A stretch of DNA of 25,546 nucleotides from IMG/VR virus record IMGVR_UViG_3300032323_001758, positions 1-25,546 of that record, one strand, 5' to 3'. The number at the start of each line of letters is the position of its first letter. The stretch's first letter is position 1. A program made the position numbers and the translations under genes. Below are positions 2,139-21,268 of the stretch, in pieces. Under the pieces are notes generated by a model. The model was not told the DNA's origin. It did no database searches and saw only the letters and a list, made by a program, of their open reading frames with translations. Source of the DNA: a virus.

Positions 2139-4681
2139 TGTCTAATTTCTATACCAATGTTCAAGCCCTAGGCGGCAAGATCCTGTATCGCGGGATCATG
2201 GACGGAAAACGTATCAAACAAAAGGTTGACTACGAACCATCACTATATCTTCCTGCCAAGAAAGATAAGGGCACTCACAAATCCCTTGATGGTCTTGACT
2301 TGTCCGAAAAACGTTTCGACAGTATCTACGAAGCGCGAGAATTCTTCAAGAAGTATGATGGCATTCCTGGTGCACCTAAAATTTATGGCAACACCAGGTA
2401 CGAATATGCATTCATTGCAGACCAACATCCTACGATGGTTGATTGGGATCAGGATAAAGTTTCTATCGCTATCGTAGATATTGAGGTCGGTTCAGAAAAC
2501 GGATTCCCTGATCCATATCTGGCCAATGAACCTATCACCGCAATTGCAATCACCTACATCAACGGCAAAACCTATGTGTTTGGTTGTGGTGACTATGAAG
2601 TGCAAGGCGATGAAGTTTATGTCAAGTGCAAAGACGAATGGACTATTTGTAAAAAGTTTTTGACATTGTGGTCTGAAAATTGTCCTGACGTTATCACTGG
2701 TTGGAATACAAAGTTCTTTGATATTCCATATCTCGTCAATCGTTTTCGCAAAATCTTGGGTGAAGATGATACCAAGAAACTTTCTCCTTGGAATTATATT
2801 TCCGAACGCAAGACAAATATCAATGGCAGAATGATGATTGCCTACAGTTTTGTTGGTGTTGAATCTCTCGACTATATCGAACTCTACAAATGGTATGCGC
2901 CAGGTGGTAAATCACAAGAATCTTATCGCCTTGATAATATCGCAAACGTTGAACTTGGTGAAGGTAAAATTTCATACGATGAATATGAAAACCTGCATCA
3001 GTTGTATCGATTGAATTTCCAGAAGTTTATTGAGTATAACATCAAAGACGTTAAACTGATTCTTAAACTAGAAGATAAGTTGAAACTTATTGAACTGGCA
3101 CTGACTCTTGCATATGATACCAAGTGTAACTATGAAGATGTGTTTGCACAGACACGTATGTGGGATTCACTAACATATTCCTATCTGTTGCAACAGAAGA
3201 TCATTGTTCCTCCACGCGAAGTGCAGGACAAAGATTCCGCATTCGAAGGTGCATATGTGAAAGAACCACAAGTTGGTCTACACAACTGGGTTGCCAGTTT
3301 CGACTTGAATAGTCTGTATCCTCACTTGATGATGCAGTATAACATTTCACCAGAGACTCTAATTGAACCGGCAGACTATACACAAGAAATGCGTGATGTT
3401 CTGTCGCAAGGTGTTTCTGTTGACAAACTTTTGAAATGTCAAATCGACACATCAAGTTTATCTGGTGTTACAATCACACCGAACGGTCAATACTTCCGAA
3501 CAGACGTTCAAGGTTTCTTGCCTAAGATGATGGAAGAAATGTATGTTGATCGTAGCAAATTCAAAAAGATGATGTTGGCTGCGAAACAGGAATATGAAAA
3601 TGAAACCGATGAATCCAAAAAATACGAAATCGAAAAGCGTATCGCAAGATACAACAACCTTCAACTTGCAAAGAAAGTATCTCTTAACTCTGCTTATGGT
3701 GCTCTTGGTAGCCAGTATTTCCGCTTTTATGATCTTCGGATGGCTCTTGGGGTTACTACTGCTGGTCAGTTGTCTATTCGTTGGATTGAAAATAAGATAA
3801 ACCAGTACATGAACAATGTACTCAAAACAGAAAGTGTTGATTATGTCATTGCATCAGATACTGACTCAATCTATCTCAATCTTGGACCTTTGGTGCAATC
3901 TGCGATGGGGGACAGAAGTAAAGATATTAACAGGACGATATCCTTCATGGATAAAGTTTGTCAGGATAAAATTCAACCGTTTATTGACAAGTCTTATGGA
4001 GAACTTGCTAACTATGTTAAGGCATATTCACAAAAGATGCAAATGAAACGTGAAGGTCTGTCCAACAAAGGTGTTTGGACTGCCAAGAAGCGTTATATCT
4101 TAAACGTGTATAATAACGAAGGTGTTCAATATAAAGAACCTGACATGAAAGTCATGGGTCTTGAAATGATTAAATCGTCCACACCATCGGCAATTCGTGA
4201 GAAGATGAAAGCGGTAATCAAGTTGATGATGACTGGCACCGAAAATGATGTACAAAACTTCATTGCCAACTTCCGAGAAGAATTCAAAAGATTGCCACCA
4301 GAAGAGATATCTTTCCCACGTGGTCTTAATGGTTTGAGCACATATTCTGATTCCGTTACACTATATAAAAAAGGTACACCAATTCATGTTAAAGGTGCAA
4401 TTCTTTATAACCATAACCTAAAGTTGATGGGTCTGGAAAAGAAATATCAAAAGATTCAAGAAGGTGAGAAAATCAAATTCACATATTTGAAAATGCCAAA
4501 TCACTTCAAAGATTCGGTTATTTCTTTCCCTTCCAGAATACCAAAAGAGTTTGAACTTGACAGGTATATCGATTACGATGTACAATTCGACAAAGCATTT
4601 TTGGAACCAATTCGTGTGATATTGGATTGTATGCAGTGGAAAGTTGAGAAGACTAATTCTCTAGATGACTTCTTCAATTGA
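2138..4681 (+). CDS. 43: DNA polymerase, family B, with 3'-5' exonuclease (gp43-like)
   Basis: An 847-residue replicative polymerase, slightly shorter than T4 gp43 (898). Exonuclease motifs are intact: Exo I D114/E116 in IVDIEVGSENG, Exo II D195 in TGWNTKFFDIPYL, Exo III D304 in YNIKDVKLI. Polymerase motifs are intact: motif A D389 in SFDLNSLYP, motif B KKVSLNSAYGALGS (from 512), motif C D574/D576 in ASDTDSIYL, and KKRY at 650-653. The C-terminus ends in SLDDFFN, resembling the sliding-clamp-binding tail of T4-like polymerases. No intein or split is present. It starts through a TAATG overlap with the Sm-like gene and leads the replication block. Confidence 0.98.
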   Translation: MSNFYTNVQALGGKILYRGIMDGKRIKQKVDYEPSLYLPAKKDKGTHKSLDGLDLSEKRFDSIYEAREFFKKYDGIPGAPKIYGNTRYEYAFIADQHPTMVDWDQDKVSIAIVDIEVGSENGFPDPYLANEPITAIAITYINGKTYVFGCGDYEVQGDEVYVKCKDEWTICKKFLTLWSENCPDVITGWNTKFFDIPYLVNRFRKILGEDDTKKLSPWNYISERKTNINGRMMIAYSFVGVESLDYIELYKWYAPGGKSQESYRLDNIANVELGEGKISYDEYENLHQLYRLNFQKFIEYNIKDVKLILKLEDKLKLIELALTLAYDTKCNYEDVFAQTRMWDSLTYSYLLQQKIIVPPREVQDKDSAFEGAYVKEPQVGLHNWVASFDLNSLYPHLMMQYNISPETLIEPADYTQEMRDVLSQGVSVDKLLKCQIDTSSLSGVTITPNGQYFRTDVQGFLPKMMEEMYVDRSKFKKMMLAAKQEYENETDESKKYEIEKRIARYNNLQLAKKVSLNSAYGALGSQYFRFYDLRMALGVTTAGQLSIRWIENKINQYMNNVLKTESVDYVIASDTDSIYLNLGPLVQSAMGDRSKDINRTISFMDKVCQDKIQPFIDKSYGELANYVKAYSQKMQMKREGLSNKGVWTAKKRYILNVYNNEGVQYKEPDMKVMGLEMIKSSTPSAIREKMKAVIKLMMTGTENDVQNFIANFREEFKRLPPEEISFPRGLNGLSTYSDSVTLYKKGTPIHVKGAILYNHNLKLMGLEKKYQKIQEGEKIKFTYLKMPNHFKDSVISFPSRIPKEFELDRYIDYDVQFDKAFLEPIRVILDCMQWKVEKTNSLDDFFN

Positions 4682-7419: not shown

Positions 7420-8525
7420 TCTTGAATACAGACGATGCAATTCACTGTGCAAAAGTATTCAAAGATTATTTTGGTGAATTCAATCGTATCGATGAATATA
7501 TGCGAAACCAGAAGCTGGCATCTCTTTCTGAAATGCCAAGCAATCCTCTTTTTCCACTAGAAGATGATCTGTTTTCGGATTTCGATGTGAATCCGGCCGA
7601 TATGGATTTTGAAGTCTGTGAGATTCCAATTGATCAATGGGAAAATCTACTGAATATCACCAGTTCTCACATCAACATTTCTCCTGTTGGTCGACAGGTT
7701 CGCCTGGCTGTCATCGAAAAGAATACGAAGAAGATTGTTGGTTTCATTCGCCTTGGTTCACCAGTAATCAATATGAAACCGAGAAATGAAATGTTGGCGC
7801 AGGTGTTCACTCAACAACCGGAGTGGGCAAAACGATTCAATGATTCTGCAATGATGGGATTCGTAATCGTTCCTGCACAACCATTTGGTTACAATTATCT
7901 TGGTGGTAAACTTCTTGCAAGTATTTGCACATCACATGAAGTTCGTGAAATTGTTAACAAGAAATATAATATGAACCTGTGTCTGTTTGAGACAACCAGT
8001 TTGTATGGCAGCACAAAGACAGTTTCTCAATATGATGGCATGAAACCTTTCATTCGTTTCAAAGGTTTAACTGACAGTGATTTTGTACCACTTATGCATG
8101 GTAAACCTTACGAAGACCTGAAAAGTTTTGTTGAAAGTAGAGTTGGTGATATCGTTGATCCGGAATCATCAAGCAAGAAACTTAAAACAACAATGACAAT
8201 CATTGCTATGACTAAAAGTGCATTAAAGGCTGATAAAAACGCTTTAAGTGACTTTAATGATACAATAAGTAAAGCGAAGAATCTGACAGAACAGAAGAGA
8301 TACTATATCAGTGATTATGGTTTCAAGAACATGATTGATTATGTAAATTGTAAAACAGACAAATTAATTCCTGGTGAGAACTATGAAAAACATCATCTTG
8401 AAAATCTGATCAGATGGTGGAAAAACAAGGCATCAAGTCGATATATCACACTGCAACAAGAAAACAAATTGAAAACCGATTTAGAAGTCTGGACTTCAGG
8501 TAAAGAGATACAAATTATAAGATAA
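7416..8525 (+). CDS. Conserved phage protein, possible DruA/DUF4338-like domain
   Basis: A 369-residue protein. The segment from about 94 to 215 (RLAVIEKNTKKIVGFIRLGSP, then FVIVPAQPFGYNYLGGKLLA, VREIVNKKYNMN, FETTSLYGSTK) has the order of elements of DUF4338/DruA proteins: a substrate-facing strand pair, a conserved 'FLILPWVRVPN-LASxLL'-like helix, then 'RYG--LLETFVD'. The match is by eye and weak. The remainder is helical and Lys-rich. Its ATG overlaps the helicase stop (ATGA), so it is co-translated with replication proteins. A late-type promoter overlaps its stop codon. A nucleic-acid role is plausible; the function is unknown. Confidence 0.8.
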   Translation: MILNTDDAIHCAKVFKDYFGEFNRIDEYMRNQKLASLSEMPSNPLFPLEDDLFSDFDVNPADMDFEVCEIPIDQWENLLNITSSHINISPVGRQVRLAVIEKNTKKIVGFIRLGSPVINMKPRNEMLAQVFTQQPEWAKRFNDSAMMGFVIVPAQPFGYNYLGGKLLASICTSHEVREIVNKKYNMNLCLFETTSLYGSTKTVSQYDGMKPFIRFKGLTDSDFVPLMHGKPYEDLKSFVESRVGDIVDPESSSKKLKTTMTIIAMTKSALKADKNALSDFNDTISKAKNLTEQKRYYISDYGFKNMIDYVNCKTDKLIPGENYEKHHLENLIRWWKNKASSRYITLQQENKLKTDLEVWTSGKEIQIIR

Positions 8526-8528
8526 ATA
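8521..8528 (+). promoter_or_regulatory. Candidate T4-type late promoter (GATAAATA)
   Basis: GATAAATACT matches the T4 late consensus at 7 of 8 positions and contains the TAA stop of the preceding gene. It sits 20-27 bp upstream of the ATG at 8548, with the Shine-Dalgarno GGAG between them. It would drive the 8548 gene and, by read-through, the glycan island. Confidence 0.6.
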
Positions 8529-8547
8529 CTTTCATTTGGAGATAACA

Positions 8548-10853: not shown

Positions 10854-11422
10854 TGGATGACGTTATTACATTTAATACAGAAACACAGGCTTTCACACCT
10901 CCTTCTTCCGCATTCAAGTGTTCTGGTTACGGGCTTGGAGAGATGATCAAAAAAATGCATCATCCAAGAGTGTTGGAAATTGGTTGTGATATTGGTGATA
11001 CCACACAATTTTTGTTAGACAGTAATCCAGACTGTGTATTGACTGGTGTTGATCCATATTCAAACTATGTTGATTGGAATGGAAACAATTTGAATGAACG
11101 TGAAGTGGTCTATCAAAGATTTATGAATCGTTTGTTGGGTTATAGCAATCGTTTTGAACACCTGCGGGACTATTCAGACAATGTTGTTGATAAAGTACCC
11201 GATAATTATTATCATCTTATCTTTATTGATGGTCTACACACCTACGAACAACTCACAAAAGATTGTGCCAACTTCTATTCTAAAGTGAAGACTGGTGGAG
11301 TTTTTGCTGGGCATGATTACAATGCTATTCCTGGTGTCAAAAAAGCAGCCGATGAATTTGCAGCAAAAGTTGGCAAAAAGATTCTTTTTACAGAATGTGA
11401 TGTGTGGTACTGGATCAAATGA
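10853..11422 (+). CDS. Class I SAM-dependent methyltransferase
   Basis: A 189-residue protein with Rossmann motif I as VLEIGCDIGDTT (40-51), the acidic end of strand 2 in TGVDPYS, and the later FIDGLHTYEQLTKDCANFY and GGVFAGHDY segments typical of the Methyltransf_24-type small-molecule methyltransferases. No target-recognition domain for DNA methylation is present, and the neighbours are glycosyltransferases. Sugar O-methylation is therefore the likeliest role. This is inference; the acceptor is unknown. ATGA overlap joins it to the next gene. Confidence 0.85.
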   Translation: MDDVITFNTETQAFTPPSSAFKCSGYGLGEMIKKMHHPRVLEIGCDIGDTTQFLLDSNPDCVLTGVDPYSNYVDWNGNNLNEREVVYQRFMNRLLGYSNRFEHLRDYSDNVVDKVPDNYYHLIFIDGLHTYEQLTKDCANFYSKVKTGGVFAGHDYNAIPGVKKAADEFAAKVGKKILFTECDVWYWIK

Positions 11423-12108
11423 AAAATTGTATAGTCTTATCTGGTCAATATAGAACATTTGACCAAACATGGGAAAACATCAAAAAATTTATTGATTTAA
11501 ATCAACTGGATGTTTACTGTCACCTCTGGTCCGACAGTCAAGAAGAATTCAACAATGTGGTTGAAAGACTGAAACCAGTAAGGATCAAACTTGAGAACTA
11601 TGAAACACATAGAGAAGAATTCGAAATGATGGAAAGAAGGATTCGTGCTATGAATCCCAAAAATCCAAATCAAGATCGAATTGCTGGCAACGCTTCAATG
11701 AACTATAGCCGAAAAAAGGCCTTTGAATTAGTTAACAAAGAATATGATACACTGGTGTATTGTAGATATGACATTAAGTTTGAGCAATTGTTCGATTTCA
11801 GAGATGTTGATATGTTAATTACTCCTTTCGAGGAGTCTTACAATTTAATATCGGATATCTTTGCAATCATGCCGTTCTCTTACGCAAAACATTATTTTCT
11901 ATATGATGTATATGAAAGATTGCATTTAACAACTTTCGAAAAAGAGTTTGAAGATTATCTAAGATATGAACGCAAATATGGTGAAGAGAATATCAGAATT
12001 CACAAAGAAGATAGATATTGCCCACACATGATGTTGTTGCGTAATATATACATGAACAAACTACGTGGTGTAACAACAGATCAACTCAAAGTATCGATAC
12101 AAAGATGA
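11419..12108 (+). CDS. Glycosyltransferase-like protein, paralog A
   Basis: A 229-residue protein. I chose ATG 11419 (ATGA overlap with the methyltransferase stop) over an in-frame GTG at 11404, because the ATG start lines up residue for residue with the next gene's product. SGQYRTF (8-14), DVYCHLW (31-37), LKPVRI and the R-x-D in YCRYDIKF are shared with the downstream gene. The R-x-D may be the metal/nucleotide site. Such 'SGQxRxF...HxW' proteins occur in surface polysaccharide loci, but the specific activity is not known. Confidence 0.75.
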   Translation: MKNCIVLSGQYRTFDQTWENIKKFIDLNQLDVYCHLWSDSQEEFNNVVERLKPVRIKLENYETHREEFEMMERRIRAMNPKNPNQDRIAGNASMNYSRKKAFELVNKEYDTLVYCRYDIKFEQLFDFRDVDMLITPFEESYNLISDIFAIMPFSYAKHYFLYDVYERLHLTTFEKEFEDYLRYERKYGEENIRIHKEDRYCPHMMLLRNIYMNKLRGVTTDQLKVSIQR

Positions 12109-12782
12109 AAATTGCATTATGTTTTTCTGGGCAATCCAGATCATTTGAAAAGGGTTATGAATATTACAAACGTAATCTACTAGATCATTACGATGTGGAT
12201 GTATACATTCATAGTTGGAAATTCGATGATGAAAGAAAACTTTTGGAACTTTATAGACCAACAAGTTATCAATTCGAAACACCGCCATTGATCGATTACG
12301 ACAGCAAGTATACAAATACTCCAAACGCACAGAAGTATCCTCCAAGGTTTACATATCGAATGTTTTATTCGATGAATGAATGTAAGAAACTGATCTTTGG
12401 TGATTATGATTGGATTATTCGTTCTCGTACTGACTATGCATTGAACGTGAAGATTCCTTTCGAACAGTTGGACAATTCCAAGTTGTACATACCAAATTGC
12501 AGAATGGTACCGACAAGAGATTTCGGCAATGATCAGTTTGCTTTTTCATCAAAAGACAATATGATGGAATATATGTCAACATATGAAAACATTGATGAAT
12601 ACTACAATGGTGGTAATCAATTCATTGGTGAAGACTTGATGAGAGCGAACTTACACAAACACGGTTTGATTGGTGAGAAACTTGTCTATGTGAACATGAA
12701 CAATCCATTTCCACCCGGTATACACAATGGAACATGGCATTCTTTAATTCGGGATGATTACGAGCAATGGACAAAATCATAA
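12105..12782 (+). CDS. Glycosyltransferase-like protein, paralog B
   Basis: A 225-residue protein starting at an ATGA overlap with its paralog. Shared landmarks are SGQSRSF (8-14), DVYIHSW (32-38), LYRPTS and R-x-D in IIRSRTDYAL. It differs from paralog A in its C-terminal half (NDQFAFSSKDNM, NGGNQFIGEDLM), which in this fold would set acceptor choice. Tandem paralogs with diverged C-termini suggest two sequential linkages in one glycan. That step order is inferred. Confidence 0.75.
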   Translation: MKIALCFSGQSRSFEKGYEYYKRNLLDHYDVDVYIHSWKFDDERKLLELYRPTSYQFETPPLIDYDSKYTNTPNAQKYPPRFTYRMFYSMNECKKLIFGDYDWIIRSRTDYALNVKIPFEQLDNSKLYIPNCRMVPTRDFGNDQFAFSSKDNMMEYMSTYENIDEYYNGGNQFIGEDLMRANLHKHGLIGEKLVYVNMNNPFPPGIHNGTWHSLIRDDYEQWTKS

Positions 12783-13510
12783 AGGAACTCAGTGGTCATT
12801 CCGGTTGTAAAATATTCTTAAAAGAAAATGAAACTGGATTGTACGTTGAAAAGACTGGTAACATAGAAAGAAATTTCAAACAAATGAAGTTTCTATATGA
12901 TGCATGTTATCCTGTTCCCAAAATTTTTTCTGTTGGTGATCAAATTCTGACCATGGAATACATTCATGGTTTGGATATGAAGAATTATCTAATACACAAC
13001 AATACACACCAGCTGTTTAATTTTTTGTGTGATTTACTTGATAGTTTTTCTGAAAATTCAGAATTAAAAGACTATACCGAAACTTACTATAATAAGTTGA
13101 AATGGCTGGATGATTGTGATGAAATGCCATTCACAAAAGAAGAATTTATTGGCAAGTTGCCTAAAATGTTGGTAAAATCCACATATCATGGTGACTTGAC
13201 ACTAGAAAACATTATGTACACCGATCCAGGATTTCACCTGATCGATCCTGTCACGATAGAATACGATTCATACATATTTGACATTGCAAAACTCAGACAA
13301 GACCTGGAGTGCAAGTGGTTCTTAAGGAACACCAATATCAAGTTGGAAGTCAAATTACAGAATCTACAAAACAAACTAAGACACCATTATGAATGGGCTT
13401 TCGATGACAATCTGTTAATATTGATGTTGTTGAGAGTCTATCTACATACTAAACAAGGTGATGATAATCATAAATTCATTATGAAAGAAATAAACAGACT
13501 ATGGAAATAA
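12767..13510 (+). CDS. APH/choline-kinase-fold small-molecule kinase
   Basis: A 247-residue protein. The catalytic loop HGDLTLENI (141-149, Brenner-type H-x-D-x-x-x-x-N) and the following metal-binding LIDP (D160), then a YDSYIFDIAKLRQDL tail, are diagnostic of the aminoglycoside phosphotransferase/choline kinase fold. The N-lobe hinge TMEYIHG is recognisable. It overlaps the previous gene by 16 nt and the next by 10 nt. Placed beside a nucleotidyltransferase, it probably phosphorylates a sugar or small alcohol that is then activated as an NDP derivative. Antibiotic resistance is not suggested. Confidence 0.85.
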   Translation: MDKIIKELSGHSGCKIFLKENETGLYVEKTGNIERNFKQMKFLYDACYPVPKIFSVGDQILTMEYIHGLDMKNYLIHNNTHQLFNFLCDLLDSFSENSELKDYTETYYNKLKWLDDCDEMPFTKEEFIGKLPKMLVKSTYHGDLTLENIMYTDPGFHLIDPVTIEYDSYIFDIAKLRQDLECKWFLRNTNIKLEVKLQNLQNKLRHHYEWAFDDNLLILMLLRVYLHTKQGDDNHKFIMKEINRLWK

Positions 13511-15280: not shown

Positions 15281-15288
15281 TATAAATA
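15281..15288 (+). promoter_or_regulatory. T4-type late promoter, perfect TATAAATA
   Basis: An exact match to the T4 late consensus, placed 5 bp after the sigma70 -10 element and about 44 bp before the ATG at 15332. The sigma70 start point would fall within it, so early and late polymerases would use nearly the same start. The gene after it has AAGG at 15321-15324 as ribosome site. Confidence 0.8.
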
Positions 15289-15331: not shown

Positions 15332-16531
15332 ATGAAATCTTTCAAGTCTTTTATCAGAGAACAGGTTGAGCCTGAAGAAGAAGGTGCGAGCCGTCAGATC
15401 AAGCATTTGACGCACGTTGAAGATCGCCCACTCCAGAAAGGAGAAAAGGGCACAAAGCATGCTATGAAATCTCTGATGGCTGCAGCTGAACACATCAAAC
15501 AAGGTAAAAAGACTTCTGAACTAACAACAAAATATGATGGATCTCCTGCCATCGTTTATGGGCATCATCCAGAAAATGGTAAATTTTTTGTTGCATCAAA
15601 GTCAGCCTTTAACAAAACACCTAAAGTCAACTACACTCCAGCTGACATTCTAAAGAACCACGGTCATGCACCAGGTCTTGTTTCCAAATTAAAAGAAGCT
15701 CTCAAACACTTACCCAAAGTTGCACCAAAAGAAGGCGTATATCAAGGTGACATGATGTTTTCTGCGGAAGACAAAAAGAAAAGTGGTGATGGTGGAACAT
15801 CTTTCAATCCAAATCCTTCTGGTTTGACATACACCGCTCATGGTGTTCATAAGAAAGCCGTAGATAAGGCAAAAATTGGTGTTGTCACTCACCTGAAATA
15901 CGAAGGCAAAGATGCAAAGAATTTAAATGCATCACATGAAGTTGATCACGAAAATTTTACAGGTCACTCGGATGTATTCTCGGTCGACCCAAGAATGGAT
16001 ACTGCAAAGGTTCATTTCAGTAAAGATCAACAAAAAGAATTCGATAAACACATTAGGATGGCTCAGTCAGTTCACGATACACACGGTGATGACATGTATG
16101 CTGGCACCAGTGCTCACCACGGTGTCGGTGGTCACCTAGAAACATATATGAACCACACAGTTCGCACTGGCGAAGAACCTAATCACCAAAACTTCAAAAA
16201 CTGGTTAGAAACTAGTAAAAACAAAGCTATTGATAAGTTAAAGACAGAGAAAAACAAACAAACTAAGCAATCAGAACTAAAAGATGAATTGAATAAGATT
16301 GATAGAAACAGAAAGCACTATAACAACCTGTTTAAGATGCATGGACACCTACAGGCTGCAAAAAATACACTAATTAATGTTTTAAATCAACACCAAGAAT
16401 TTCAACATGAGCATGGTGGTGAGACTGCTAATCCAGAAGGATATGTGTTTCATCACGGAAATGAATCCGATAAACTAGTCAATAGAGCAGAATTTTCCCG
16501 CAGAAACTTTGCTGGAATTAGAAACATATGA
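15332..16531 (+). CDS. Ligase-like nucleotidyltransferase with capsid-targeting N-terminus
   Basis: A 399-residue protein. Residues 1-10, MKSFKSFIRE, match the T4 internal-protein targeting peptide (MKTYQEFIAE) with Glu10 at the expected cleavage point. TTKYDGSPAIV (K67) resembles motif I of DNA/RNA ligases (K-x-DG), and GVYQGDMMF (about 136-143) is placed like motif IV; FFVASKSAF could supply motif III-like residues and VVTHLKYEGK motif V. The C-terminal third is a Lys-rich coiled coil. From memory, homologs are common in T4-like phages as uncharacterised proteins. Ligase or AMP-transfer activity is inferred and unproven. Confidence 0.8.
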   Translation: MKSFKSFIREQVEPEEEGASRQIKHLTHVEDRPLQKGEKGTKHAMKSLMAAAEHIKQGKKTSELTTKYDGSPAIVYGHHPENGKFFVASKSAFNKTPKVNYTPADILKNHGHAPGLVSKLKEALKHLPKVAPKEGVYQGDMMFSAEDKKKSGDGGTSFNPNPSGLTYTAHGVHKKAVDKAKIGVVTHLKYEGKDAKNLNASHEVDHENFTGHSDVFSVDPRMDTAKVHFSKDQQKEFDKHIRMAQSVHDTHGDDMYAGTSAHHGVGGHLETYMNHTVRTGEEPNHQNFKNWLETSKNKAIDKLKTEKNKQTKQSELKDELNKIDRNRKHYNNLFKMHGHLQAAKNTLINVLNQHQEFQHEHGGETANPEGYVFHHGNESDKLVNRAEFSRRNFAGIRNI

Positions 16532-18387
16532 AAAAGTTTTTAGAAAAAATTAAAGAAGACGAACAGACGCATAGTCCTGTGGTGATGGCTTTTGGCCGTA
16601 TGAATCCACCGACAATTGGCCATGAGAAACTGGTTCAAAGAGTTAAAGATATTGCAAAAGACTATAATGCACCACATCATGTGATCATTTCACACACAGT
16701 TGATGCAAAGAAGAATCCTTTAGAAGTTGCAAAAAAACTCAAACACGCAAAAAGATTCTTTCCAGATACAAACATATCCGCGTCTAGTAAAGAAAAGCCA
16801 ACCTTCTTACAACATGCAGCTGCATTACATGCTGCAGGCCACGACCATTTAGTCATGGTTGCTGGTTCTGACCGCATTCCCGAATACGAAAGCAAACTGC
16901 AACAGTATAATGGAGAAGGTCCAGGAAAGTTGTTTAATTTCAAGAAAATAGAAGTTAAATCTGCTGGCCACCGTGATCCAGATTCAGAAGGTGCAGAAGG
17001 AATGTCTGCATCCAAAATGAGAGATCATGCTGTGAATAACCGTTTCAATGATTACATTGATAAAGACGGCAAAAAGAAACCAGGTTTCAAAAGTGGTATT
17101 CCTTCTCATGTACCAGAAAATCACGCCAAAGAATTGTTCCGCGATGTTCGAAAAGGTCTTGGAATCAATGAAGATTTCAACAGAGGTCTATTTAAAGCAA
17201 TTTTCGTGACAGGTGGTCCAGGTTCTGGTAAAGATATCATTATTCGTGAAGCTATTGCTGAAAGTAAAGCTATTGAACTGAATTCGGTTCAGGCTTTCGA
17301 TATTCTGATGGACAAACAAAAACTATCAGAGAAGTCAAACGATGTTCGTAGAGAATCAATTAGAAATCGTGGTCCATTGATCATTAATGGACCTGCTGAC
17401 GATAATAAACTGTTGACAATCAAAGAAGAACTAGAAGAACTGGGTTATGAAACATCTATGGTGTTCGTTGACACCACAAATGAAGCCAGTAAGAATAGAA
17501 ACGAAAAACTGGCAAAAATGATTGCAGAATCTGTGAGATATGATAAGTGGAAACAAGCTCAGTCTTGCAAGTTATCATATTCTAAAGAGTTTGAGAATTT
17601 CATCAACTTCAATAACAGTTCCACATTAGAAGAAATTGAAGAAGATATTACTGACACCTACGAAAAAATAAATAGGTTCATTGAGAACAAAAATTACAAT
17701 GAAATTGCGTTCTCTTGGTTAGAAAGCCGCGGTAAAATCAATATCGCAGAATCTTATGGTTTATTATTTAAGGAAGATGAAAATGTTAAGAAAAATTCTA
17801 GATTTTTTGAGAATTACAAGTCCAAGCGCAACGCCGGAAAAGCATCCACTGGATATCCAAAAATATCAGCCGGTGCAGGTTCCAGAGCCGCAGGTCCAGG
17901 AGACATCCCAGCCGACAATCGTGCAGGAGACCCCAACGCCGACAATATCAAGTGGGACGCCAACAAGCGAACCGGCAGTTACATCTTCCGAACCTACACC
18001 GAAGAAAACTCGCAGCAAAGCCGCAAAGACTACCCAGAACCACAAGAGACAAACTTCAGCAAAGACAAAGAAAAAATAAAGAAGAAGGGTCTAAGAGACT
18101 CTCCTACGGTTAGTCAGAGATTGAGAAACGTTACATCAATTGGACCAGAATTCGATACCCGTCAACAGGGAACAGTCTATCCAATGTCTGGTTTAGGTGA
18201 TGTGACGTATAGAGAAGAAACAAATTTTCATTCTTTCAGAAACAAAATGAAAGAATCTTTTATGGATCCAGGTGACAATGAGATGGGTGTTGCTGGCGTT
18301 TTGAACGGTGCAACAAACAAGGAACCAATTCAAAGTCCTAAAGACAATGTTGGTATAACAACAGAAAAGAAAAAGAAAAAGAAATGA
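16528..18387 (+). CDS. NadR-like adenylyltransferase plus P-loop kinase, with disordered tail
   Basis: A 619-residue protein starting at an ATGA overlap. It begins MKKFLEKIKE, a weaker match to the targeting peptide. Residues about 17-170 are a nucleotidylyltransferase: FGRMNPPTIGHEKL (T-x-GH), VAGSDR, and GMSASKMRDHA in place of I-S-S-T-x-x-R. Residues about 222-370 are a P-loop kinase: FVTGGPGSGKD (Walker A 229-236), RNRGPLIINGPADD, MVFVDTTNEASKNRN. That order mimics NadR (NMN adenylyltransferase then ribosyl-nicotinamide kinase), although the kinase also resembles zeta-toxin-like kinases. Residues from 419 on are low-complexity; 419-517 overlap a second reading frame. The C-terminus is Lys-rich. 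Confidence 0.88.
   Translation: MKKFLEKIKEDEQTHSPVVMAFGRMNPPTIGHEKLVQRVKDIAKDYNAPHHVIISHTVDAKKNPLEVAKKLKHAKRFFPDTNISASSKEKPTFLQHAAALHAAGHDHLVMVAGSDRIPEYESKLQQYNGEGPGKLFNFKKIEVKSAGHRDPDSEGAEGMSASKMRDHAVNNRFNDYIDKDGKKKPGFKSGIPSHVPENHAKELFRDVRKGLGINEDFNRGLFKAIFVTGGPGSGKDIIIREAIAESKAIELNSVQAFDILMDKQKLSEKSNDVRRESIRNRGPLIINGPADDNKLLTIKEELEELGYETSMVFVDTTNEASKNRNEKLAKMIAESVRYDKWKQAQSCKLSYSKEFENFINFNNSSTLEEIEEDITDTYEKINRFIENKNYNEIAFSWLESRGKINIAESYGLLFKEDENVKKNSRFFENYKSKRNAGKASTGYPKISAGAGSRAAGPGDIPADNRAGDPNADNIKWDANKRTGSYIFRTYTEENSQQSRKDYPEPQETNFSKDKEKIKKKGLRDSPTVSQRLRNVTSIGPEFDTRQQGTVYPMSGLGDVTYREETNFHSFRNKMKESFMDPGDNEMGVAGVLNGATNKEPIQSPKDNVGITTEKKKKKK
17783..18079 (+). CDS. Overprinted small gene, Pro/Thr/Ser-rich with Lys-rich tail
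   Basis: A 98-residue frame, +1 relative to and wholly inside the NadR-like gene. ATG 17783 has an AAGGA Shine-Dalgarno (17770-17774) at 8-nt spacing; a further in-frame ATG at 17756 lacks one. The product begins MLRKILDFLRITSPS, continues as a P/T/S/E/Q linker (VPEPQVQETSQPTIVQE) and ends PKKTRSKAAKTT...KTKKK. By my hand count, pyrimidine-ending codons of the host frame in this stretch are about 39 C to 10 T, versus about 6 to 22 in the first 60 codons of the same gene. The host third base is this frame's second base, where C gives S/P/T/A. Function unknown. Confidence 0.6.
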   Translation: MLRKILDFLRITSPSATPEKHPLDIQKYQPVQVPEPQVQETSQPTIVQETPTPTISSGTPTSEPAVTSSEPTPKKTRSKAAKTTQNHKRQTSAKTKKK

Positions 18388-19127
18388 AATCATTCCTAGA
18401 CTTTGCCAAAGAAAAAGAAAATGACGAACTGAAGAGACAGGTCGATCATTTTAAACAACTTTCGGATAAAAATAAAGAAAGTGCCGAGAATGCTTTAATG
18501 AAAGGTGATAGAGATGGTCATGCTCTATTCATGGCAAAAGTAAATCACTTTGACACTCAACACGAATTTTTAAAATCTAAAATGAATGAGAGTGTTGAAC
18601 AGGTTGATGAAAATCATGTTGCTATTGCCATGGGTAAAGAAATGGACGATGAAGGTAGTATGATTATGAACCAACTGGATCAAATCGAGCGTTCAATTAA
18701 AATGCTGCGTGATACAGTAAAAGATCCAGAAATGCAGATTCCTGCTTGGGTTCAATCTAAAGTTACTTTGGCTGCAGACTACATGGAAACTGTTGCTGGT
18801 TACATGTCAAGTAAAAACGAAAAGGTTAGTGAAGAAGTCGATCTTGATGAGGCATCACCCGCTTGGCAACGCAAAGAAGGCAAATCTGCATCTGGCGGTT
18901 TGAACCGTAAAGGTATTGCTTCTTATCGTAAACAAAATCCAGGATCAAAGTTATCGATGGCTGTCACAACAAAACCATCGAAGTTAAAACCAGGTTCAAA
19001 AGCAGCAAATAGACGAAAGTCTTTCTGTGCAAGAATGTCAGGAATGAAGAAGCGTTTGACTTCTGCTAAGACGGCAAAAGATCCAAACTCTAGAATAAAT
19101 AAGTCACTACGCAAATGGAATTGCTAA
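18384..19127 (+). CDS. Multi-domain internal head protein candidate with DUF6321-like C-terminus
   Basis: A 247-residue protein starting at an ATGA overlap. N-terminal MKSFLDFAKE resembles the capsid-targeting peptide (Glu10). Two linkers, ESVEQVDE (69-76) and SEEVDLDE (149-156), separate three segments: an N-terminal helical stretch, a helical middle (IAMGKEMDDEGSMIMNQLDQ) and a basic C-terminal domain (SPAWQRKEGKSASGGLNRKG, SYRKQNPGSKL, GSKAANRRKSFCARMSGM, SLRKWNC). The last domain resembles a basic domain of unknown function seen in many phages. Proteolytic release of the segments inside the prohead is my inference. Confidence 0.82.
   Translation: MKSFLDFAKEKENDELKRQVDHFKQLSDKNKESAENALMKGDRDGHALFMAKVNHFDTQHEFLKSKMNESVEQVDENHVAIAMGKEMDDEGSMIMNQLDQIERSIKMLRDTVKDPEMQIPAWVQSKVTLAADYMETVAGYMSSKNEKVSEEVDLDEASPAWQRKEGKSASGGLNRKGIASYRKQNPGSKLSMAVTTKPSKLKPGSKAANRRKSFCARMSGMKKRLTSAKTAKDPNSRINKSLRKWNC
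19094..19101 (+). promoter_or_regulatory. Weak candidate late promoter (AATAAATA)
   Basis: AATAAATAAG lies at the end of the preceding coding region, 40-47 bp upstream of the ATG at 19141. It matches TATAAATA at 7 of 8 positions. Because it is inside a Lys/Asn-rich coding stretch in an AT-rich genome, chance is a real possibility. Confidence 0.3.
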
Positions 19128-19140
19128 AAGGAAAACAAAA

Positions 19141-20286
19141 ATGATCAATTTAAAAAAACAAGATCCTGTTGCTGACGCTGTTAAAGATGTTCTACAGCAA
19201 GAAGCATTAAAAGGCAATCAACACAGAATCGACAAGAACAAGAATAATAAGATCGATGCTCACGATTTTAAGATTCTGCGTGGTGAAAAGCCAGAAGTTA
19301 AAAAAGAAGAAGTTGAACAGATTGATGAATTAAAGAAGTCAACTCTTGGTTCTTATATTTCAAAAGCGTCACGTAATGCCACCATTCAACGTAAAATTGG
19401 TGCCGACTTTGAAACATTGGCAGACAAGTCTAGAAAGCCTAGCATGAAAAAAGCGGCAACAACACTTTCTGACAAGCATAAAGCTAAAACATGGTCTCGC
19501 CTTGCTGGAGTTGACAAAGCTGTTAGTCGTTTGGCAAAAGAAGAAGTAGAAGATATCGAAGAAGGAAATAATCCTTTTGACGTTAAAAATTATAAGAGTC
19601 AGCTGCCATCCAATCCAGGTGAGAAAGCTGGTTTCGATTCTAAGAAAACTTCAACAGGAACTGTTTATACCAGAAAGCCTGTTAAAGATGAGCCAATGAA
19701 GAAAGAAGAAGTTGAACAGGTTGATGAAGCCACAATGACACACATTACATTGGGTAAAAAAGTCAAAAATTCCGATGGTGGTCACAACCAAGATGTACAT
19801 TACAAAGGTAAAAAAATAGGTTCTATTGAGTCATATAAACATAGAACAGGTTTACGTTACGGTGGCAAACATGATGCTTCCGGCGATATGGAAGCAGGTT
19901 CTAGAAGTTCAGAGGAAGCAGTTGATTTTGTCAGAACTGCACATGCGGACCATTTAAGAAGTATGAAAAAAGAAGAGGTTGATCAAGTACAAGAACGCGA
20001 AATGACTTCTGGAGAAACAGCAGAAAAAGAACGTATCGTAAAGGGCATGAAAAAAGGTTTCTCTGGTTTCAGACAACGTTACGGTGATCGTGCCAAGTCT
20101 GTCATGTATGCAACTGCAACCAAAAATGCCATGAAAGAAGAGTCACTAGAAGAAGGCAAGCGTCCAGAAGGCGACACAGTTCCTTTTGTTCAGAATGCAA
20201 ATACGTCTTCTTCACCAATGAAGAAAATCAAAGAAGTTGCTGGTGCAGCAATGAAGAAGATTTCTAAAGACTTAAAAACCAAGTAA
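19141..20286 (+). CDS. Polyprotein-like internal head protein candidate with EF-hand-like loop
   Basis: A 381-residue basic protein with an AAAAGGA ribosome site. An EF-hand-like calcium loop, DKNKNNKIDAHD (31-42), is followed by linkers KEEVEQIDE (55-63), KEEVEDIEE (133-141), KEEVEQVDE (188-196), KEEVDQVQE (277-285) and KEESLEE (332-338). Between them lie different small domains: LKKSTLGSYISKASRNA (64 on), NNPFDVKNYKSQLPS (143 on), MTHITLGKKV with HHS-like GGKHDASGDMEAGSR, and AEKERIVKGMKKGFSGF with RYGDRAKSVMYATATK. The design looks like a chain of modules joined by repeated cleavable linkers. No enzyme motif is visible. Confidence 0.8.
   Translation: MINLKKQDPVADAVKDVLQQEALKGNQHRIDKNKNNKIDAHDFKILRGEKPEVKKEEVEQIDELKKSTLGSYISKASRNATIQRKIGADFETLADKSRKPSMKKAATTLSDKHKAKTWSRLAGVDKAVSRLAKEEVEDIEEGNNPFDVKNYKSQLPSNPGEKAGFDSKKTSTGTVYTRKPVKDEPMKKEEVEQVDEATMTHITLGKKVKNSDGGHNQDVHYKGKKIGSIESYKHRTGLRYGGKHDASGDMEAGSRSSEEAVDFVRTAHADHLRSMKKEEVDQVQEREMTSGETAEKERIVKGMKKGFSGFRQRYGDRAKSVMYATATKNAMKEESLEEGKRPEGDTVPFVQNANTSSSPMKKIKEVAGAAMKKISKDLKTK
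19303..20154 (+). repeat. Dispersed EEVEQ(I/V)DE linker repeats within one gene
   Basis: Five copies at 19303-19329, 19537-19563, 19702-19728, 19969-19995 and 20134-20154 (last one short). The first and third are nearly identical in DNA (AAAGAAGAAGTTGAACAG, then A/G, then TTGATGAA). Related linkers occur in the neighbouring genes at 18588-18611, 18828-18851, 22510-22533 and 22750-22776. Each ends in a hydrophobic-x-Glu triplet, the T4 gp21 prohead-protease type of site. Confidence 0.75.
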
Positions 20287-20287
20287 A

Positions 20288-21265
20288 ATGAATAAGACTG
20301 CATCAAAAATCAAAGAAATTGTTAAGAGAACTGTTGCCGAAAAACCATCTTTCGGCACAGATCCTATGGAACCATGGTCCGCAAAATATAATGTAACAGA
20401 AGATGCAGCTCTTGATAGATATCTTTTATCTAGAGGTTTGAATCCGAAGTATGTGAATAAGGATCTGAAAGTTTCACATGCAAAGTCCAATGCATTTATG
20501 AATTGGAAAAATTCTCATGCAAATGAGATGCAAAAAGAATCAATGACAGTTGCACATACACCTACAGCGAAAAGACAGCATCAATTAAAGAAGTCTGCAC
20601 ACTTTGGCAAAGAAGTTCGAACCAACGGCATTCATGGTTCAAAATTACACTCTGAAGCCGTTGATAAAAGAGATACTGTCACATTCGATATTCCATTCCT
20701 AATCAGAGTGTTGGAATACTCGCGTGAGGATGCCAAGACTGATATGGATCTACACAATGTTGTAACCAAATTGATCCACATTCGTAACAAGGGTGTTCTG
20801 ACAATGAAGGACTACAACTTTGTTACCAGACTGAAAGAACACTTTGAAATTGATGGTGTCATCACCGAACAAGAATGTAAGTGTTCAGACGAAAAGGAAT
20901 GGGAAAAGAAAGCACAGGCTCGTTCCGAAATCTGGAGAAGAAAGCGTCTGAAGATTGACGAAGACAAATATCAAGATTCAATGGCTGCAACCCAGACTGT
21001 TGGTTCAGAAGTTGATACCGATTCTGTACCAAAAAGAAAGCGTGAAATGACAAAATCAGCCAGAATGATTAAGTCAATTTACAAAAAGAAACGTGTCAAA
21101 GAAGAATTATATGATCACGAAAAAGAAGATAAGGGCGCCAAATTTGGTGAAAAACCATTTGCTGCATCTGTCCTCAAAGGTGGAAAAACAATGACTGGTA
21201 CACAAAGAGACACCATCGAAATTGATCCAATGATGCGTGCCAAGCCAGGAAAAGTAAACAGATAA
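20288..21265 (+). CDS. Multi-domain structural protein candidate, unknown
   Basis: A 325-residue Lys-rich protein one base after the previous stop. Recognisable modules are GTDPMEPWSAKYNVTEDAALD (23 on), QHQLKKSAHFGKE, and FDIPFLIRVLEYSREDAKTD with DLHNVVTKLIHI and GVLTMKDYNFV (about 134-182). The last is a helical module I recall in many phage virion-associated proteins. A CxC pair (QECKCSDEKEW) follows and the C-terminus is basic. It lacks the MKxF targeting start, so if it is in the head it may be cleaved or recruited differently. A late promoter overlaps its stop. Confidence 0.78.
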   Translation: MNKTASKIKEIVKRTVAEKPSFGTDPMEPWSAKYNVTEDAALDRYLLSRGLNPKYVNKDLKVSHAKSNAFMNWKNSHANEMQKESMTVAHTPTAKRQHQLKKSAHFGKEVRTNGIHGSKLHSEAVDKRDTVTFDIPFLIRVLEYSREDAKTDMDLHNVVTKLIHIRNKGVLTMKDYNFVTRLKEHFEIDGVITEQECKCSDEKEWEKKAQARSEIWRRKRLKIDEDKYQDSMAATQTVGSEVDTDSVPKRKREMTKSARMIKSIYKKKRVKEELYDHEKEDKGAKFGEKPFAASVLKGGKTMTGTQRDTIEIDPMMRAKPGKVNR

Positions 21266-21268
21266 ATA
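21261..21268 (+). promoter_or_regulatory. T4-type late promoter (GATAAATA) overlapping a stop codon
   Basis: GATAAATAGT contains the TAA stop of the upstream gene and lies 34-41 bp before the ATG at 21302. The same arrangement, same octamer and stop in the same place, is seen at 8521-8528, which strengthens both calls. Confidence 0.65.

Follow-up and report, generated by a model that had tools for sequence, protein, structure and literature searches.

The locus and its host gene

The DNA analysed here, which we call the window, is the whole stretch of 25,546 nucleotides covering positions 1 to 25,546 of the IMG/VR record IMGVR_UViG_3300032323_001758. It is a fragment of a T4-like phage with genes for a family B DNA polymerase, a UvsX recombinase and a DnaB-like helicase, and the named relatives of this phage are classified as Kyanoviridae. 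A small open reading frame (ORF), the inner ORF, lies entirely within a longer gene on the same strand, the host gene (Table 1). The phages that carry this nested ORF form a large family of uncultured T4-like viruses from water.

Table 1 Position of the host gene, the nested inner gene and promoter-like sites in the window
Feature	Position	Strand	Description
Host gene	16528–18387	+	619 aa; nucleotidyltransferase domain (GRMNPPTIGH), P-loop kinase domain, disordered C-terminal tail
Candidate T4-type late promoter	17667–17674	+	AATAAATA; within the host gene; distance to the inner ATG about 115 nt
Host disordered tail (predicted)	17749–18384	+	host residues 408–619; pLDDT mostly below 50 from residue 408; the whole overlap lies inside
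Shine-Dalgarno sequence	17770–17774	+	AAGGA, 8 nt before the inner ATG; AAGGA or GAGGA at 8 nt in 124/150 homologs
Nested inner gene	17783–18079	+	+1 frame of the host gene; 98 aa, ATG to TAA
Inner start	17783–17785	+	ATG; ATG in 150/150 homologs, in the same alignment column in 147
Inner N-terminal amphipathic helix	17786–17818	+	inner residues 2–12 (LRKILDFLRIT); AlphaFold prediction
Inner Lys-rich C-terminal tail	17987–18076	+	inner residues 69–98; median net charge +10 over the last 30 residues (150 sequences)
Inner stop	18077–18079	+	TAA; in 150 homologs TAA 138, TAG 8, TGA 4
NATAAATA-like site	8521–8528	+	before the gene start at 8536
NATAAATA-like site	15281–15288	+	before the gene start at 15332
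NATAAATA-like site	19094–19101	+	before the gene start at 19141
NATAAATA-like site	21261–21268	+	before the gene start at 21302

Residues 2–219 of the host protein match the phage cytidyltransferase families phrog_3041 and phrog_395, and a structural model based on 47 homologs is mostly well folded over residues 1–407. Structure matches of this folded part comprised NadD-type adenylyltransferases and nucleotide or polynucleotide kinases, which makes the label "NadR-like" reasonable. This name, given in an earlier sequence-only reading of the window, is a fair one for the folded part, a nucleotidyltransferase followed by a P-loop kinase. The host protein can reasonably be regarded, from its modelled fold, as a putative NadR-like nucleotidyltransferase-kinase. 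A PDB sequence search with the host profile gave no match, and a scan of MAG contigs matched the nucleotidyltransferase domain alone. The inner gene begins at host codon 419, in the region of predicted host disorder that starts at residue 408. The end of the enzyme tail varies among the homologs, as nine lineages (L085, L124, L130, L132, L168, L194, L205, L208, L213) possess an extra C-terminal segment, which ends ...DLHDDFVKKHGKVPDNWIKDKK in L085.

Two further features were seen elsewhere in the window. The adjacent genes at 11404–12108 and 12105–12782 both belong to phrog_13607 and are probable tandem paralogs. An unrelated gene at 12767–13510 has milder C-rich third positions in codons 120–230, with up to 18 C to 11 T per 60 codons; no overlapping plus-strand ORF of at least 60 aa is listed for these codons.

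The inner reading frame in the window

The sequence-only reading had reported a 98-codon ORF with AAGGA and ATG in the +1 frame of the host gene, and both its coordinates and the spacing of 8 nt proved exact. Host codons in the overlap end in 39 C to 16 T and 33 A to 10 G, compared with 82 C to 182 T and 181 A to 75 G outside the overlap (Fisher p = 7.5e-8 for C:T inside versus outside). The 39 C-ending codons exceed the 16.7 expected for the same amino acids under the gene's own codon usage (z = 6.6). Hand counts given previously for this region (39 C to 10 T, 27 A to 7 G) were right for C and slightly low for T, A and G, probably because fewer codons had been covered, while the accompanying count of 6 C to 22 T early in the gene holds exactly for the first 60 codons.

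In the window sequence alone, the probability that the +1 frame is open, given the host protein and its codon usage, is 0.54, and the open +1 frame is therefore no proof in this single sequence. A chance ORF is compatible with the window by itself and is excluded by the homologs. Two more in-frame ATGs lie upstream of the inner start, at 17756 and 17777. They were rejected as starts, and the inner start was placed at 17783, because conservation among homologs is limited to this codon.

Conservation of the inner ORF among homologs

Four scans of IMG/VR provided 159 distinct host genes that were long enough for testing. The inner ORF is kept in 150 of them, with lengths of 77–128 aa. Conservation of its start, stop and Shine-Dalgarno sequence had been suggested as a check on the nested gene, and all three are conserved across the set, in which host identity falls to about 47–50%; the stop occupies the same alignment column in 114 of the 150 homologs and lies near by in the remainder. 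For 35 homologs that are less than 70% identical to each other and were treated as independent, the joint probability of an open +1 frame, given their own proteins and codon usage, is about 1e-50. Of 567 control windows of matching length from these genes, 2 were open; the +2 frame across the same stretch was open in 0 of 150.

Among the other nine homologs, the inner ORF is shortened in L134 and absent from eight (L099, L111, L138, L140, L143, L145, L147, L148). In these eight, the codons that surround the inner start are missing as well, and the C/(C+T) ratio in the corresponding region is 0.09–0.29. Homologs that keep the host frame and break the inner ORF with stops had been named as evidence against dual coding; this case is realized in part, yet without the C bias and the start region these eight are natural negative controls. 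The second kind of contrary evidence named, a C bias without an inner ORF, was encountered in none of these homologs. Absence from 8 of the 159 host homologs indicates that the inner ORF is dispensable in some lineages. All homologs with the inner ORF are uncultured metagenomic contigs. The cultured relatives HTVC008M, Melnitz and C48C1 encode the enzyme with a different C-terminus and without the inner ORF.

Selection on both frames

Rates of change were compared pairwise on disjoint pairs of homologs, an approach less exact than a phylogenetic model. Across 73 such pairs, the host frame accumulated 787 synonymous differences in the overlap versus 1462 expected (ratio 0.54, z -22), whereas the ratio was 1.02 in the upstream codons 0–417. 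Reduced synonymous change in the host frame, which the sequence-only reading had put forward as a test, is thus present across the inner ORF. The codons AAG GAA, which contain the Shine-Dalgarno sequence, showed 1 and 0 synonymous differences against 17.0 and 16.2 expected, and the host codons AAT GTT over the inner ATG showed 0 of 18.1 and 0 of 25.4 expected. By codon 521, four codons beyond the inner stop, sliding synonymous ratios have returned to about 1.

Synonymous constraint was complemented by an OLGenie-style comparison of changes in the first position of host codons. In the overlap, the rate of those that change the inner protein is 0.45 times that of the non-altering ones, compared with 1.80 outside (ratio of ratios, z = -3.5), which indicates purifying selection on the inner frame. 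The host frame is likewise under purifying selection in the overlap (NN/SN 0.17). Taken with the synonymous constraint, these two results support the earlier claim that both frames are constrained. Identity of the inner protein in divergent pairs is 0.37 versus 0.22 in codon-redrawn nulls, and it is above the null in 250 of 250 pairs.

The codon bias follows the borders of the inner ORF. A profile of 63 homologs puts C/(C+T) at about 0.3 upstream of the inner ORF; the ratio drops to 0.07 over the first ten inner codons, where T is needed in the second position of the inner frame to encode the hydrophobic residues Leu, Ile and Phe of the helix. Past the helix codons the ratio rises to 0.62–0.84, reaches 0.95 in the last ten codons before the inner stop, and falls to 0.22 in the next ten. 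Pooling all 150 homologs gives 0.70 inside the inner ORF against 0.27 outside. Both the C bias and the synonymous constraint cease at the inner stop.

These comparative patterns argue that a second functional coding frame exists within the host gene, to which we assign a probability of about 0.93. According to an alternative explanation, the host frame alone is coding, its C-rich codon choice stems from an RNA structure, from a DNA element or from a codon bias local to a low-complexity tail, and the ORF is a by-product. The roughly even chance of an open +1 frame given the window's host protein would fit this explanation, as would the low complexity and predicted disorder of the inner protein. 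We nevertheless consider it very improbable, since the inner start, Shine-Dalgarno sequence and stop are conserved as such, the position-1 test reveals constraint at the amino acid level in the inner frame, and the C bias appears and disappears at the edges of the ORF and gives way to T over the hydrophobic helix codons. In addition, ORF-less homologs do not have the bias, and the +2 frame is never open.

The same sites bear on programmed frameshifting, by which a host–inner fusion would form an alternative C-terminus of the NadR-like enzyme and no separate protein would be made. In many loci the inner frame runs upstream of its ATG without a stop, and in one sequenced fusion (L080) a deletion of about 110 bp joins host and inner frame in one ORF. 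However, synonymous conservation in the region is highest at the Shine-Dalgarno sequence and the ATG, for which frameshifting has no need, and in L204 (up = 0) and L058 (up = 4) a stop closes the inner frame at or within four codons of the ATG. A frameshift product is therefore a very unlikely substitute for a separately initiated inner gene. The truncated L080 fusion (about 4215–4416) ends at the inner stop and derives from either a real deletion or an assembly error.

A late-promoter-like motif inside the host gene

The late promoter of the cyanomyovirus S-PM2 is NATAAATA (PMC2984593). Within 200 nt upstream of the inner ATG, TAAATA is present in 130 of 150 loci versus 44 expected from synonymous redraws, and ATAAATA in 69 of 150 versus 13 expected. 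The position of (N)ATAAATA is mostly 103–118 nt upstream of the inner start. Among 151 loci with the inner ORF, 64 have the motif at the aligned place, compared with 1 of 8 loci without the ORF; the exact motif is present there in less than half of the loci. The window has five other plus-strand ATAAATA sites, four of them 14–50 nt before gene starts, and its total number of motifs is not above chance. We regard the site at 17667–17674 as a probable embedded late promoter, and it may also serve gene 18384 or genes downstream. Many related loci share another late-promoter-like site, located about 1200 nt upstream of the host gene.

Presence of this motif raises the alternative that the synonymous constraint is mainly due to a regulatory element for gene 18384, composed of a late promoter and a ribosome binding site. 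In agreement with this, constraint is already present before the inner ATG (ratio 0.52 in codons 390–419). Yet both constraint and C bias span the full inner ORF and cease at its stop, 300 nt before 18384, selection is frame-specific, and the motif is rare in the ORF-less homologs (1 of 8), which leaves a regulatory element as an extremely unlikely main cause.

Features and possible role of the inner protein

The inner gene encodes a basic, mostly disordered (predicted) protein of about 11 kDa. Its short N-terminal amphipathic helix, with a hydrophobic moment of 0.34 versus 0.21 for shuffles, is followed by a Pro/Thr/Ser/Gln linker with predicted disorder and by the Lys-rich tail, in which several S/T/K columns are nearly invariant. 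AT-hook-like KRGRKP/PRGRKP motifs were observed in the basic tail of six members (L101, L103, L205, L208, L210, L213). None of 84 inner sequences matched PHROG or Pfam, a PDB sequence search with the inner profile found no solved relative, and the inner protein is absent from the annotations and protein-family libraries searched. A profile search of 314 sequences revealed no stand-alone homolog, and three divergent BLAST queries found no stand-alone inner gene in named phages, a search in which the low-complexity filter may hide weak matches. A nested HNH homing endonuclease was rejected as a candidate, as no HNH domain was found, the 84 inner sequences are without Pfam or PHROG match, and the protein is predicted as helix and disorder alone.

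Rz1 is the best-known nested +1 gene of tailed phages. With its nested same-strand layout and Pro-rich chain the inner gene resembles lambda Rz/Rz1 (PMC5295617), and its product could accordingly be conceived as an Rz1-type lysis protein. The missing cysteine refutes this identification: there is no lipobox, and 143 of 150 inner proteins contain no cysteine at all. Moreover, the host gene encodes a nucleotidyltransferase-kinase and not an i-spanin. We see next to no chance that the inner protein is of the Rz1 type.

Proteins encoded by the genes starting at 15332, 16528, 18384 and 22411 begin with MKSFKSFIRE, MKKFLEKIKE, MKSFLDFAKE and MKTFKQYLDE, respectively. We presume that such N-termini resemble T4-type capsid-targeting N-termini, and by this analogy the enzyme, together with its neighbours, may belong to the internal head proteins. 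The N-terminus of the inner protein is a short amphipathic helix and not an MK[ST]F-type peptide as seen on the neighbouring genes. Our best guess, a speculative one with less than even odds, is that the inner protein is a late accessory protein, e.g., an internal head or DNA-packaging accessory, that docks by its helix to a membrane or another protein and binds nucleic acid through its tail.

Proposed expression and origin

We propose that two proteins are made from one stretch of DNA by the use of two frames on the same strand. The presumably older frame would encode the disordered C-terminal tail of the NadR-like enzyme, and the second frame would be a small, probably late, fully nested gene of 77–128 codons (98 here) that probably arose by overprinting. 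Ribosomes would start independently at the ATG at 17783, guided by the conserved AAGGA. The inner gene would be translated from the host-gene mRNA and probably also from a shorter late transcript that starts from the embedded AATAAATA, with the inner gene as its first cistron. The sequences themselves show that the inner ORF, its start, stop and Shine-Dalgarno sequence and the promoter-like motif are conserved and that both frames are under selection, whereas translation of the inner gene, late timing and direction of origin are what we infer.

In a tree of the folded host part, at least three changes are required for presence of the inner ORF, and the ORF-less lineages are nested. These changes are most simply read as a single gain with at least two losses; the presence/absence pattern could also stem from recombination between domain and tail. 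Overprinting of a disordered enzyme tail would be the simplest history as judged from the sequences. A younger inner frame that arose de novo would fit the lack of a stand-alone homolog in the profile search of 314 sequences and the cultured relatives, which have the enzyme without the inner ORF, but the nesting of the ORF-less lineages also fits losses. The most complete scenario, which is rather doubtful as a whole, is that of a nested late gene with its own buried promoter and a function as a virion or DNA-packaging accessory. This gene would have emerged de novo, by overprinting of the disordered enzyme tail, in a common ancestor of a large T4-like clade, and nearly all descendants would have retained it.

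Significance and comparison with known systems

Gene callers easily suppress nested genes that are out of frame, and to our knowledge few nested genes in large dsDNA phages have strong evolutionary support. Its 150 distinct homologs, sharp boundaries, natural negative controls and conserved promoter-like motif make this locus a clean T4-like example of overprinting. The homolog family offers a usable test set for overlap detection and adds a protein family that is absent from the PHROG and Pfam libraries. The locus also shows that a second conserved gene can be accommodated in a disordered enzyme tail. Should the embedded promoter prove real, a single gene would contain the coding sequence of another gene as well as its control sequence.

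Enrichment in C and disorder-prone, Pro/Ser-rich products have been reported for overlapping genes (PMC8227390, PMC6195259, PMC7017920). The C richness and the disorder-promoting residues of the inner gene agree with these biases (PMC6195259). Unlike overprinted viral genes generally (PMC8227390, PMC6195259, PMC7017920), the inner gene appears in no annotation or family library searched here.

The lambda Rz/Rz1 spanin genes (PMC5295617, PMC6139136) share with the present locus a small gene nested out of frame in a tailed dsDNA phage and a Pro-rich product. They differ in the lipobox cysteine, which the inner protein does not have, and in the host gene, which is a membrane spanin in lambda and a nucleotidyltransferase-kinase here. 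The same-strand overlapping ORFs olg1/olg2 of Pseudomonas phage Fc02 (PMC9936078) are similar in that one initiates inside the other. However, these are immunity-region genes of a temperate phage whose overlap was recognized from transcripts, whereas evidence for the inner gene is comparative and comes from a T4-like family. The HNH endonuclease carried by the ShiLan insertion in a phage methylase gene (PMC11855218) is likewise a second protein read out of frame within an enzyme gene. The ShiLan case is a mobile insertion with an HNH nuclease, while no HNH domain was found here and the inner gene has been inherited together with the host gene throughout a deep family. The cyanomyovirus late promoter motif NATAAATA (PMC2984593), finally, also precedes several genes of the window, but one copy in the window lies within a coding gene and precedes the start of the nested gene by about 115 nt.
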